This document shows positions 5,387 to 10,716 of a DNA stretch of 64,000 bases, in pieces (position 1 is the stretch's first letter; each line of letters begins with the position of its first letter). Made by a program: the position numbers and the translations under genes. The DNA comes from Arcobacteraceae bacterium (GTDB lineage Bacteria; Campylobacterota; Campylobacteria; Campylobacterales; Arcobacteraceae), in NCBI GenBank assembly GCA_028375605.1, contig JAONGR010000005.1:1-64000 (forward strand), in the 5' to 3' direction. The notes beneath the pieces are model-generated. The model made no database searches, was not told where the DNA came from, and saw only the letters and a program-made list of their open reading frames with translations.

Positions 5387-5689
5387 GTGTTAGATAAAGA
5401 GGATATAGTATCAAAATTAAAGGAACTAAAGCCTAGATATGCAGATGAGGGATTGATTCTTTTAGGATTGTTTGGTAGTTATGCTAAGGGTAACCCAAAT
5501 AACTTTAGTGATATTGATATTGCATATAAACTTGACTATGATAAATTTTCACAAAAATATAAAGATGGATTTTCAAAGCTTTTGAGAATAGATGATATTA
5601 AAAATGAACTACAAGAAACATTTAAAACTAAGATTGATTTTGTTCCTGATTCTAATAAAAAGCTATTAAATGGGATAGTATATGTCTAG
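5387..5689 (+). CDS. MntA-like nucleotidyltransferase antitoxin
   Basis: LFGSYAKGNPNNFSDIDIAY = GSX10DXD motif; GTG start. Confidence 0.85.
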   Translation: MLDKEDIVSKLKELKPRYADEGLILLGLFGSYAKGNPNNFSDIDIAYKLDYDKFSQKYKDGFSKLLRIDDIKNELQETFKTKIDFVPDSNKKLLNGIVYV

Positions 5690-6038
5690 CGCTATAAATA
5701 AGCTTGATAAAGTACTTGAATCTATTGATAATATAAACTTTATTCTAGAAACCAAAGATATAAAAGTAACTCAAGCTATAGAAGATAAACTTATAAAACC
5801 TGCTATACGAATGAATATAGTTCGTATTGCAGAACAATTTTCAAAACTAAAAGATGATAATGAATTTAAAATACTTGAAGAGTTTTCAAGTAATGATTTA
5901 AAAGGCTTAAGTGCAGTTAGAAATTATATAGCTCATGATTATGATAGCACAGATGATAATATCATTGAAGATGTTATTAGATATAATTTGCCTGTATTAA
6001 AAAATACAATTGATACAATAATAAAAGACTTAAGTTAA
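5682..6038 (+). CDS. HepT-like HEPN ribonuclease toxin (DUF86)
   Basis: RNYIAHDY = RX4HXY motif; overlaps the MNT gene. Confidence 0.85.
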   Translation: MSSAINKLDKVLESIDNINFILETKDIKVTQAIEDKLIKPAIRMNIVRIAEQFSKLKDDNEFKILEEFSSNDLKGLSAVRNYIAHDYDSTDDNIIEDVIRYNLPVLKNTIDTIIKDLS

Positions 6039-6166
6039 AATACTTTTGACTTAACGAAAAAATAAGAAAAGAAAGCATTGATAATTACCTTAGATATAGA
6101 GGTAGATTGCCTTTATGGTACATTCATTGGTACATCAAGGAAATTTATTTACATTTTCTAATGATT

Positions 6167-6262
6167 TCATTTTCACATCATTTACGTTGCTTATAATTAC
6201 ATCACGAAATAGATAATGATAATAAACTTATACGGATTTGTCCTCCTATTGAAAGTTTATTG
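6167..6262 (+). ncRNA. sibling sRNA unit A (promoter + predicted transcript about 6204-6261)
   Basis: TCATTTTCACA/TCATTTACGTT 11-bp repeats (6167-6188), TATAAT 6192-6197, ACGAAAT at 6204; AATAAACTT (6221-6229)/AAGTTTATT (6253-6261) stem with TCCTCC in loop. Confidence 0.5.
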
Positions 6263-6307
6263 ATAAATCAGAGTTTGTTTTATAGTTTAATATAAAAAGA
6301 GATGTTT

Positions 6308-6400
6308 TCATTTTCAGCTCATTTTATTCTTTCTAATTAAATTCCGAAATTTAATAATAGTTAGTATATAAAAACCTACATCCTTTTAGGTTTTTATATA
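6308..6400 (+). ncRNA. sibling sRNA unit B (predicted transcript about 6344-6400)
   Basis: 11-bp repeats 6308-6329, TCTAAT 6332-6337, CCGAAATTTAATAAT, perfect 14-bp hairpin TATATAAAAACCTA (6365-6378) CATCCTTT TAGGTTTTTATATA (6387-6400). Confidence 0.6.
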
Positions 6401-6445
6401 AAATACGAAAACAACCTTCAAAATAAAAGTAAATAGTATACAATT

Positions 6446-6541
6446 TCATTTTCACATCATTTTCATTTCTTATAATTACTGTACGAAATTTAACAATAAT
6501 AATAAAATATAGAGGCTTGTCGTCCTTTTCAAGTTTTTATA
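6446..6541 (+). ncRNA. sibling sRNA unit C (predicted transcript about 6483-6540)
   Basis: TCATTTTCACA/TCATTTTCATT (6446-6467), TATAAT 6471-6476, ACGAAATTTAACAATAATAAT, hairpin GCTTG TCGTCCTTTT CAAGT TTTTAT. Confidence 0.65.
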
Positions 6542-6622
6542 TTACAACTTCCAATAGAAAATCAAAATACAATTTTTATAATAACTGAAAATAAAGAATA
6601 GGTTTTTAAATCGAATGGTATT

Positions 6623-6654
6623 AATTAAGAGGAAGAAACCTCTTAATTTTTATT
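6623..6654. terminator. hairpin at the lctP 3' end, T-run on + strand
   Basis: AATTAAGAGG aagaaa CCTCTTAATT TTTATTTT. Confidence 0.6.
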
Positions 6655-8341
6655 TTAGTAGTGGATCGGTAACCCCAAGTACATACATACCTATAAGTCC
6701 TAAGATACCTGCAACTAAACAGTAGTAAAGAGTAGGAATAATAGTTCTTCTTAATGTCTCACCTTCTTGATCTAAAAGACCAACAGTAGCAGAGGCTGCT
6801 ACTACATTGTGAATAGCTATCATATTTCCAGCAGCTGCACCTACAGCTTGAAGTGCAATCATAAATGCGGTTGATAATCCTAGCGCATCTGCAACACCAA
6901 ATTGAAATTGTGATAGCATCATATTCGATACAGTATTAGAGCCTGCAATAAATGCACCCAAAGCACCAACCATAGGTGCAAATAATGGAAAAATATCACC
7001 AACAGAAGTAGCAACAAAGTTTGCCATTGCTACAGGCATAGAATCAAACCCTGATGCATTAACACCTGAATTTATAAGAATTCTAACTAGTGGAATAGTA
7101 AACATAAGTACAAATCCGGCACCAATCATAACTTTTGAAGACTCACTTACTGCTGCTTTTAATTCTTTGAATTCCATTTTGTGAAAGAAAAAAGTAATCA
7201 GAACGACAAATACTAAAATACCACCAGGTAAATATAAAGGTGTAATGGTATATCCTAACCCTTCTCCTAAAATATCTTTAAAAGGGATAACCCAAGACTT
7301 AACAAATGCTTTTGCTTCATCCGATACTCGTGTAAGAACTAATATGGCTGCAACTAAAACATAAGGAATCCATGCTTTTGTTAAAGACATAGGTACTTTA
7401 TCTGTCATAGCATCTAATTTCATCTCAAATTTACTTACCCATTCTATAGGCCACTCTTCTTTTGGTGCAAAATCCCATTTATCTTTAGGGATTAAAAAAC
7501 CTTTTTTAGCTGCAAATACTACTATTGGAAGACCTATTAACGCACCTATTAAAGATGGAAATTCTGCTCCTAAAAATACACCAGTTAAAGCGTATGGAAT
7601 TGTAAATGCTAGACCACCAAAAATCGCGAATGGTAAAATAGATAGACCTTCAAACCATGATTTATTTTTTCCAAAAAATCTTGTCATCATCATTATCATA
7701 AATAATGGAATTAATGTTCCTGTAATTGCATGGACAATAGCTACTTCAGATGTAATGATTTGTAAATAAACATCCCAACTAGAACCCATTGAACTTAACG
7801 TAGCTCCAATTCCTTCAGAATCAAGACCTTTATTAACCCCTATTAAAATAGGCGTACCAACTGCACCAAACGATACTGGTGTGCTTTGTATCATCATACC
7901 AATCATAACAGCTGCCATTGCTGGAAAACCAATCGCCACCATAAGAGGAGCTGCTATAGCTGCAGGTGTTCCAAAACCAGAAGCACCTTCAATAAATGAA
8001 CCAAATAACCATGCAATGATTATAACTTGAACTCTTCTATCTGGACTTACATTATTAAATCCTTGTCTAATTGTTGTCATTGCACCTGAATGTTTTAGTG
8101 TATTGAGTAATAAAATAGCACCAAATATAATCCATAATACTGCAAGAGTAATAAGAAATCCTTGTATAGATGACGCTAGTACTCTGTTTAAACTAACCTC
8201 CCATACATATACTGCTACAGTTGCGGTAACAAGAAACACAATAGGCATTGCTTTTTTTGCGGGTAATCGTAAACCAATTAATAAAACTGCTGCCACAAAT
8301 ATAGGTAACGCTGCAAAAAGAGCTTGTAAACTAATATCCAT
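6650..8341 (-). CDS. lctP: L-lactate permease
   Basis: 563 aa, multi-[23 protein letters not shown] motif of LctP family. Confidence 0.93.
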
Positions 8342-8490
8342 TTTTTTCCTTTTAGTTATAAATTAGTGCTATCTTAGTCTTAATTTATAATATTGATATG
8401 ATATTTTGATAATCATTTGGAGTAGGGTATTTCTTATGAGAGGATAGATTAGATTAATCTAAATGACTTTTTAATAGTAGATAGACGATT

Positions 8491-8566
8491 TCATTCTTAA
8501 TTCATTTTCGTTACTTATACTTACAACATGAAATCAATAGTGGAACTGAATCATCACTATTTATTT
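8491..8566 (+). ncRNA. sibling sRNA unit D, divergent body (predicted transcript about 8528-8566)
   Basis: TCATTCTTAAT/TCATTTTCGTT (8491-8512), TATACT 8516-8521, ATGAAATCA, hairpin AATAGTG (8536-8542)/CACTATT (8555-8561). Confidence 0.45.
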
Positions 8567-8599
8567 TAAAATTATAAAACGAATATGAACTGTTTTATT

Positions 8600-8700
8600 T
8601 CATTTTCATTTCATTTTCGTTATTTATAATTAGATTACGAAATTTAACAATGATAATCTAAGATATATGGATTTGTAGTCCTTTTCAAATTTTTATATTT
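8600..8700 (+). ncRNA. sibling sRNA unit E (predicted transcript about 8637-8698)
   Basis: TCATTTTCATT/TCATTTTCGTT (8600-8621), TATAAT 8625-8630, ACGAAATTTAACAATGATAAT, hairpin ATTTG TAGTCCTTTT CAAAT TTTTAT. Confidence 0.65.
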
Positions 8701-8742
8701 TTATCAACTTCAAAATCACGTCTTAATCTCAAGATAATACAT

Positions 8743-10716
8743 TTACAATTTTTTTATTTTATCTATCTCATCACGAAGTCGTATTGCTTCTTCAAAATTT
8801 AGGTCTTTTGCTGCTTGGTTCATTTGTTTATTAAGTTCAATCAACATCTTTTTTCTTTCAGCTGCAGGCATTTTATTGAGTTTATCCATTTTTAAAGCGA
8901 TATCATCATACTCTTCAACTTTCATATCTTCATCTAAACGTCGAATAGTTGTCGTTGGTGTGATACCATGCTCTTTATTGTGGGCTTCTTGTATCTCTCT
9001 TCTTTTTGTCGTGGTATCTATAGCAAACTGCATACTATCTGTGATGCGTTTATGAAATAAGATAACTCTTCCGTTACTATTTCTAGCGGCTCGTCCCATT
9101 GTTTGAACTAACGCTGTACGACTCCGTAAAAAGCCTTCTTTATCTGCATCTAAAATAGCCACAAGTGAAGCTTCTGGTATATCTAAACCTTCTCTTAAAA
9201 GATTGATACCAATAAGTACATCAAATTTTCCAAGGCGAAGTTGTCTGATGATTTGGTTTCTTTCAATGGCATCTATCTCACTATGAAGGTATTTTACTTT
9301 GATACCTAAATCACTATAATAACTAGCTAACTCTTCTGCCATTTTTTTAGTAAGAACGGTTACTAAAACTCTCTCATTTTTTGCAACTACTTTTTTTATC
9401 TCATCGTGTAAAAGCTCAACTTGAAATTCACTATCTTTTAACTCAATGATTGGATCTAAAAGCCCAGTAGGTCTTATGATCTGGTGTGCCACTTCACTAC
9501 TCATATCAAGTTCAAGTTCATTTGGTGTCGCACTCACAAAAAGAAAATTTGCTTTTTTGTTGATATATTCATCAAATTTCAGAGGTCTATTATCTAAAGC
9601 AGATGGTAACCTAAAACCATAATCAACCAAAACCTCTTTTCTACTTCTATCAGCTGCGTGCATTCCTCTAAACTGTGATAAACTTACATGTGATTCATCT
9701 ACGATTAAAAGATAGGGTCTATCCATCGCTTCAAAATAATCGATAAGTGAATAGGGTGTTTCTCCTGGTTTTTTATCTGTAAGTAGTCTTGCGTAGTTCT
9801 CAATACCTTTACACATACCAGTAGCTTCAATCATCTCTAAATCGAACTCTACTCTTTGTTTGAGTCTTTGGTATTCGACATGCTTTTCTTCTTTTTGATA
9901 GTAAGCTAGTCTTTCGTCGAGTTCTTTTTCGATAGACTCTACAGCTTTTGCTAATCTATCTTGAGATACCACAAATGGATTTACACTATATATGGTTACC
10001 TCTTTTATCTCTTCATTTGTTTTATTTGTCATATATTCTAGTTTTGCGATGGCTTCTATCTCATCCCCAAAGAACTCTAAACGGATGAATTCATCTTCAC
10101 TATATGCAGGAAATATATCTAAAACATCTCCATTTACCCTGAACTCTCCACGATCAAAAAACTTATCGTTTCTTTTGTATCCCATCTCGACTAGTTTAAG
10201 AAGCATTGCTCTTTGTGAGTACTCTTGACCTAGTTCTACTTTTTGTACATTTTTTTTATATTCTTCTGGATTACCAAGACCATAGTTTGCAGATACTGAA
10301 GCTACACAAATAATATCATCAAAACTTAAAAGCGATGAAGTGGTACTTAGTCGCATACGCTCTAACTCACTATTTATCGAACTATCTTTTTCTATAAACA
10401 GATCACTTCTAGGTATGTACGCTTCAGGCTGATAATAATCATAATAAGAGATGAAATATTCTACATGATTATCAGGAAAAAATCCTCTAAATTCTGAGTA
10501 TATCTGAGCTGCCAAAGTTTTATTATGAGTCATGATAAGTGTAGGCATCTGAGTAGCTTCTATAACTTTAGCCATAGTGTAGGTTTTACCTGAACCTGTC
10601 ACTCCTAAAAGAGTGTTGTATTTATTACCACTAACTATACTAGCTGTTAGTTTTTCTATCGCTTCTGGTTGGTCTCCTGCTGGAGAATATTCTGTATGTA
10701 CTTTAAATGGTGTCAT
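8743..10716 (-). CDS. uvrB: excinuclease ABC subunit B
   Basis: 657 aa; [49 protein letters not shown]-terminal UVR motif. Confidence 0.98.

Follow-up and report, generated by a model that had tools for sequence, protein, structure and literature searches.

Intergenic units on the plus strand of the window (the whole stretch of 64,000 nucleotides of Arcobacteraceae DNA analysed here; its genome is G000) probably encode sibling small RNAs (sRNAs) that are driven by a two-component system and repress a porin of the Campylobacter MOMP type through a seed and a hairpin loop. In the circuit that we propose, an envelope-sensing two-component system, made up of a response regulator of the OmpR/PhoB family and its kinase, both encoded elsewhere in the genome (G000:C90), would act on trans-acting sRNA genes of ∼60–75 nt each; the regulator would bind an 11-bp direct repeat before each promoter and switch the sRNAs on. 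Each sRNA would expose the 5' seed ACGAAAUUUAACAAU and end in a terminator hairpin with an anti-Shine–Dalgarno (anti-SD) loop. The seed would pair with a 14-nt stretch (from about −36 to −22) in the leader of the major porin mRNA. The loop could pair with the SD sequence of the same mRNA; the ribosome would thus be kept off, and porin synthesis would fall while the envelope sensor is active. Because every component (regulator, promoter box, sRNA and target) is specified to the base, the whole predicted circuit from envelope sensor to porin is testable.

Organization of the units

The units span positions 6164–6262 (A), 6306–6402 (B), 6444–6547 (C), 8489–8570 (D) and 8598–8704 (E), all on the plus strand, and follow a common plan: the box TTTCATTTTCANNTCATTTTC, a TATAAT-like −10 element, ∼7 nt, the seed ACGAAATTTAACAAT, a spacer of ∼10 nt, a hairpin with a UCCUU loop and a U-rich end. 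The box is an 11-bp direct repeat in which TTTCA recurs every 11 bp; it occurs five times in the window against 0.28 expected from shuffles, and the seed three times against 0.34. Each unit has its own −10 element and terminator-like hairpin, and no open reading frame of at least 50 amino acids lies within the units. The flanking genes, both on the minus strand, are lctP (L-lactate permease, 6650–8341), which is outside the system, and uvrB (8743–10716), named from its sequence. Unit A is adjoined by a plus-strand pair of an MntA-like nucleotidyltransferase and a HepT-like HEPN protein (5387–6038), a toxin–antitoxin candidate that scores below the family cut-offs.

Unit C has its box at 6444–6464, TATAAT at 6471–6476 and a predicted sRNA at 6483–6547, with the seed ACGAAATTTAACAAT at 6483–6497 and the hairpin at 6506–6543. 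Unit E carries an exact box, TTTCATTTTCATTTCATTTTC, at 8598–8618, TATAAT at 8625–8630 and a predicted sRNA at 8637–8704 with the same seed, its hairpin core lying at 8671–8690. In unit B, the box (6306–6326) is followed by a predicted sRNA at 6344–6402 with the seed CCGAAATTTAATAAT (6344–6358) and a hairpin at 6365–6400. Units A and D have altered seeds. Unit A, with the direct repeat TTTCATTTTCACATCATTTAC (6165–6185), TATAAT at 6192–6197 and a predicted sRNA at 6204–6262 (seed ACGAAATAGATAAT), appears to be a divergent sibling. Unit D keeps the box (8489–8509, two mismatches) and promoter; its hairpin (8528–8570, stem AATAGTG/CACTATT) has no anti-SD loop and is a weak model match (33 bits), so that the unit would be either a copy that has degenerated or a sibling put to a different purpose.

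The initial annotation, which was concerned with the hairpins, described them correctly. Hairpin B has a perfect 14-bp stem (6365–6378 and 6387–6400) around the loop CATCCTTT (6379–6386). Hairpin C is formed by GCTTG (6515–6519) and CAAGT (6530–6534) around TCGTCCTTTT (6520–6529), can be extended by G–U pairs to 14 bp and has a predicted folding energy of −11.9 kcal/mol; in hairpin E, ATTTG (8671–8675) and CAAAT (8686–8690) enclose TAGTCCTTTT. As claimed, UCCUUU is found in the loops of B, C and E (3/3) and UCCUCC in that of A. Hairpins with a TCCTTT loop and a stem of at least 9 bp number two in the window, compared with a mean of 0.4 in Markov windows. The statement that AAAAGGA is the usual ribosome-binding site (RBS) of the window was too strong: the motif is present in only 12% of 334 start regions and AAGGA in 35%, so it is common and no more. 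The conserved unit, at ∼100 bp, is larger than the hairpin described earlier, and its conserved unpaired 5' end, which is the discriminating element for the target, the two-component regulator box and the major porin mRNA as target are additions to that description. Judged from the sequence, the hairpins are the 3' ends of predicted small RNA genes.

Predicted pairing with the porin mRNA

The first DNA search of the window's own genome gave a weak match (E = 7e-5) on another contig, the opposite strand of which is the porin leader ATAATTGTTAAATTTCGGAATTTAAAAATAAAAGGACTAAAATG. The porin belongs to the family Campylo_MOMP (PF05538), and its leader contains 14 nt complementary to the seed. This complement lies 21–24 nt upstream of the start codon of the major porin in each of the four sRNA-bearing genomes in which that porin was found. 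An exact 13-mer search over eight genomes found, outside the sRNA genes, one site each in G000, G003, G001, G015 and G084 and two in G085; six of these seven sites sit 21–24 nt before a porin ATG, one per genome in six genomes. When the seeds of B, C and E were scored against 334 start regions from ∼370 kb of the genome including the window, a part of the whole, the porin ranked first, at −16.0 to −16.9 kcal/mol, about twice the value of the runner-up (−8.5 to −8.8 kcal/mol). The best of 500 shuffled seeds reached −12.4 kcal/mol on the porin leader, and cofolding gained −10.6 to −16.1 kcal/mol with the cost of both structures paid. Complementarity of a conserved seed to a distant mRNA start region, as seen here, is the mark of a trans-acting sRNA. 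The seed also overlaps the self-complementary AAATTTCGAAATTT of the leader, and part of the match could therefore reflect a motif common to both. The site is absent from the two other MOMP-type paralogs of the window's genome, and in neither G002 nor G022 did we find a porin target. For the altered seed of unit A the porin ranks only 15th; this unit may have moved to another target.

The loops match the same mRNA. The porin SD stretch AAAAGGACTA, present in three of the 334 start regions, is the exact complement of the unit E loop UAGUCCUUUU; the match to this SD is 10 nt for E and 8 nt each for B and C, while loops of other genomes match the G000 porin leader over 5 to 7 nt. Against their own porins, the loops match over 9 or 10 nt in G003, 9 nt in G084 and 8 nt in G015, where the matches of G003 and G015 are not specific to the own porin and these latter loops fit some neighbours' leaders equally well or better. 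The apparent co-evolution of loop and SD is thus clear for G000 and only suggestive elsewhere. A target search with the loop by itself did not discriminate, as the porin ranked between 8 and 62 of 334. The translational repressor role proposed in the initial annotation is still the best reading of an outward-facing anti-SD loop, but the loop alone singles out no target.

In the mRNA the seed site comes before the SD, and in the sRNA the seed comes before the loop; the two contacts have the same 5'-to-3' order and therefore cannot form a single ordinary nested duplex. Both contacts at once would give a pseudoknot-like complex, for which the spacer and stem of the sRNA may be long enough. It is conceivable, though on balance unlikely, that this arrangement defines a two-contact sRNA with a permuted antisense order, in which the seed would hold the leader upstream, the terminator loop would form a kissing contact with the SD of the same porin mRNA, the loops would co-evolve with the porin RBS of each genome, and the 5' end of a TonB-receptor mRNA would carry the seed in related genomes where the sRNA is absent. 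Were this so, one outer-membrane mRNA could regulate another (TonB receptor acting on porin) in relatives that lack the sRNA.

We consider it improbable that the sRNAs are broad anti-SD repressors, the loops of which capture many AAGGA sites while the 5' end is incidental. Almost every member does preserve the UCCUU loop despite changes in the stem, and the loops reach −12 to −17 kcal/mol on many start regions; however, the 5' seed is conserved above the stem and matches the porin leader far above all else, and the loop flanks vary, in G000 towards its own porin SD.

The porin leader element

The leader element, with AATTGTTAAATTTCG invariant, is kept in 12 genomes, and the sRNA was found in four of these; the 12 include six genomes of genus g7, G001 and G085, all without an sRNA found. 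The element is wider in distribution than the sRNA and therefore either serves some purpose beyond this sRNA or is acted on by other seeds. In porin leaders of ∼100 nt (L160, L161, L162 and others), a pairing of ACATTGTG with CACAATTG recurs with and without the sRNA, and AAATTTCGAAATTT stands just before the SD in genomes of both kinds.

The seed CGAAATTTAACAA also occurs in leaders of TonB-dependent receptor genes, where it has the sense orientation and directly follows a −10-like element; the genes, all on the minus strand (L186 at ∼1752 in G009, L189 at ∼1966 in G082 and L079 at ∼1245 in G085), belong to genomes where no sRNA was detected. These copies either point to mRNA–mRNA pairing or caution that the motif has some other role. 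In one such role, CGAAATTTAACAA would be an operator in the DNA, or a general element at the 5' ends of the leaders of several outer-membrane genes, instead of a pairing seed, and the hairpin would be no more than a terminator. Its place at the beginning of the likely TonB-receptor leaders, in the same orientation, and its inclusion in the palindrome AAATTTCGAAATTT in porins would suit this reading, which we nevertheless hold to be quite improbable: the porin copy has the opposite orientation and lies inside the likely transcribed leader, the complementarity of 14 nt goes beyond the palindrome (CAAT versus ATTG), and the loops match the same porin mRNA too.

Upstream of a porin on the opposite strand in G077:C277 (L167, minus strand, ∼1795), we observed TATAAT, CGAAATTTAACAAT and then the short hairpin AAGGTAATACCTT; together these may form an sRNA that shares the seed but uses a different promoter and terminator.

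Homologs and covariation

A DNA search and two models located unit homologs in six genomes of the window's family (G000, G002, G003, G015, G084 and G022), with 11 copies in addition to the weak unit D. Five of the six carriers are uncultivated metagenome-assembled genomes (MAGs) labelled Arcobacteraceae, Campylobacteraceae or Campylobacterales; the genome of the window is 62% complete. Across 12 members aligned by fitting to the structure, pairing is kept in 97.5% of the cells of the 12-bp stem, and nine of its 12 pairs show two-sided compensatory changes; none of 500 shuffles reached any of these measures, and slid versions were likewise far off. One pair occurs as G–C, U–A, C–G, A–U and G–U. 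The paired stem changes noted in the window are thus borne out among homologs. A MAFFT alignment of five sequences, not fitted to the structure, showed the same variable pair in four Watson–Crick forms, with the other measures weaker.

No Rfam family matched the window or four porin loci at gathering score. The RNA family therefore appears to be new and previously undescribed in marine Campylobacterota, although the kind of system is known. The structured model found no sRNA in genera with the porin element but without the kinase. A degenerate promoter-plus-seed pattern gave no match over the contig database, although the kinase query reached the same contigs, so that either the pattern or the scan was too strict. 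Weak sequence-model matches in G009 and G083 were rejected as sRNAs, as they fall on the porin leader, read from its antisense strand.

The regulator box and a probable two-component system

Within one mismatch, the box has 17 matches in 107 family genomes, compared with one for a reversed control. The kinase is present in 12 of 14 box genomes (Fisher p = 3e-12, in which independence is overstated as the genomes are related), and all six sRNA-bearing genomes carry it at ∼60% identity or more. The sRNA lies directly behind an OmpR-type sensor kinase gene in G003, G015, G084 and G022, and behind a broken copy of the kinase gene in G002. The box stands 40–70 bp before eptA in G008, G114, G115 and G119, and precedes operons for PepSY–response regulator–kinase, PAP2 and sulfatase proteins in other genomes; the window's genome has a three-mismatch box before murB–response regulator–kinase, and a Sulfurospirillum MAG an exact one before sulfatase–response regulator–kinase. 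Behind the kinase in G008, G061, G114, G119 and Sulfurospirillum, the box is present and the sRNA absent. Because the box precedes the eptA, PepSY and sulfatase operons and the sRNA follows the kinase gene in five genomes, it is very likely that an OmpR/PhoB-type two-component system drives the sRNAs, and the hairpins of the window would be part of a regulon for lipid A and envelope remodelling. Several unit copies share one response-regulator box, as sibling sRNAs would.

Two further box-bearing arrangements were noted. In two Campylobacteraceae MAGs (L204, 4301–4346; L205, 2386–2431), the box comes after the kinase gene, and what it precedes is an operon for a membrane protein and a phosphatase rather than an sRNA. 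Near G003:C10:37514 (L026/L041), a terminator (AGCTCTACTTTTTAGTAGGGCTTTTTT) and a stretch reading UUUCCUU come after a box-driven promoter that has no seed; this locus may specify another RNA under the control of the regulator.

It is very improbable that the units are only repeated promoters and terminators (attenuators or a repeat element) with no regulatory RNA function; tandem intergenic copies and the loopless unit D would fit, but the neighbourhoods differ between genomes, often lying behind a kinase gene, and promoter, seed and loop are kept while the stem covaries. That the minus-strand transcript acts as a CsrA sponge through AGGA-loop hairpins is scarcely credible: its loops read AAAGGA or AAAAGGA, which CsrA sites resemble, but the orientation of the −10 element, the regulator box, the seed and the U-rich tail is that of the plus strand.

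Comparison with known systems

In enterobacteria, OmpR-type two-component regulation feeds the Hfq-dependent sRNAs MicF, OmrA and OmrB, which lower outer-membrane proteins. The physiological logic is alike, but their seeds are different, and we know of no sequence relation to the sRNAs of the window. In the literature searched, we found neither an sRNA that targets a porin nor a system of sibling sRNAs under two-component control for Arcobacter relatives.

RepG of Helicobacter pylori, in the same phylum, acts through a terminator loop rich in C and U, which pairs with a homopolymeric G-repeat of the tlpB mRNA leader; its gene adjoins the response regulator gene hp1043, a further resemblance (PMC8295292). 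The initial annotation had invoked this sRNA; the pyrimidine-rich terminator loop is common to both, but RepG is only a loose analogue, as its target is a G-repeat and it has no comparable 5' seed (PMC8295292). The porin leaders contain no G-repeat. On the side of the regulator, PmrAB/eptA regulons likewise combine an OmpR-family regulator, an 11-bp direct repeat and a phosphoethanolamine transferase gene, the Acinetobacter PmrA box being TTTAAG-N5-TTTAAG (PMC10927774). The half-site here is instead TTTCA, and the regulator, despite its association with eptA, falls below the NCBIfam PmrA equivalog cut-off (187 versus 330 bits).

The mechanism appears closest to that of two-component-driven sibling sRNAs such as LhrC and the csRNAs. 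The csRNA1–5 of Streptococcus pneumoniae are five similar sRNAs under one response regulator (CiaRH) that pair in the SD-to-AUG region of their target, but differ in sequence and target comC (PMC4507080). LhrC1–5 of Listeria monocytogenes are likewise multicopy siblings under one envelope-stress two-component system (LisRK), and they contact the target mRNA through their loops, among them that of the terminator; this Gram-positive system is unrelated in sequence and targets lapB, a cell-wall adhesin (PMC4132741). Compared with LhrC1–5, the sRNAs predicted in the window have one short hairpin, a 5'-terminal seed and a porin as the target.
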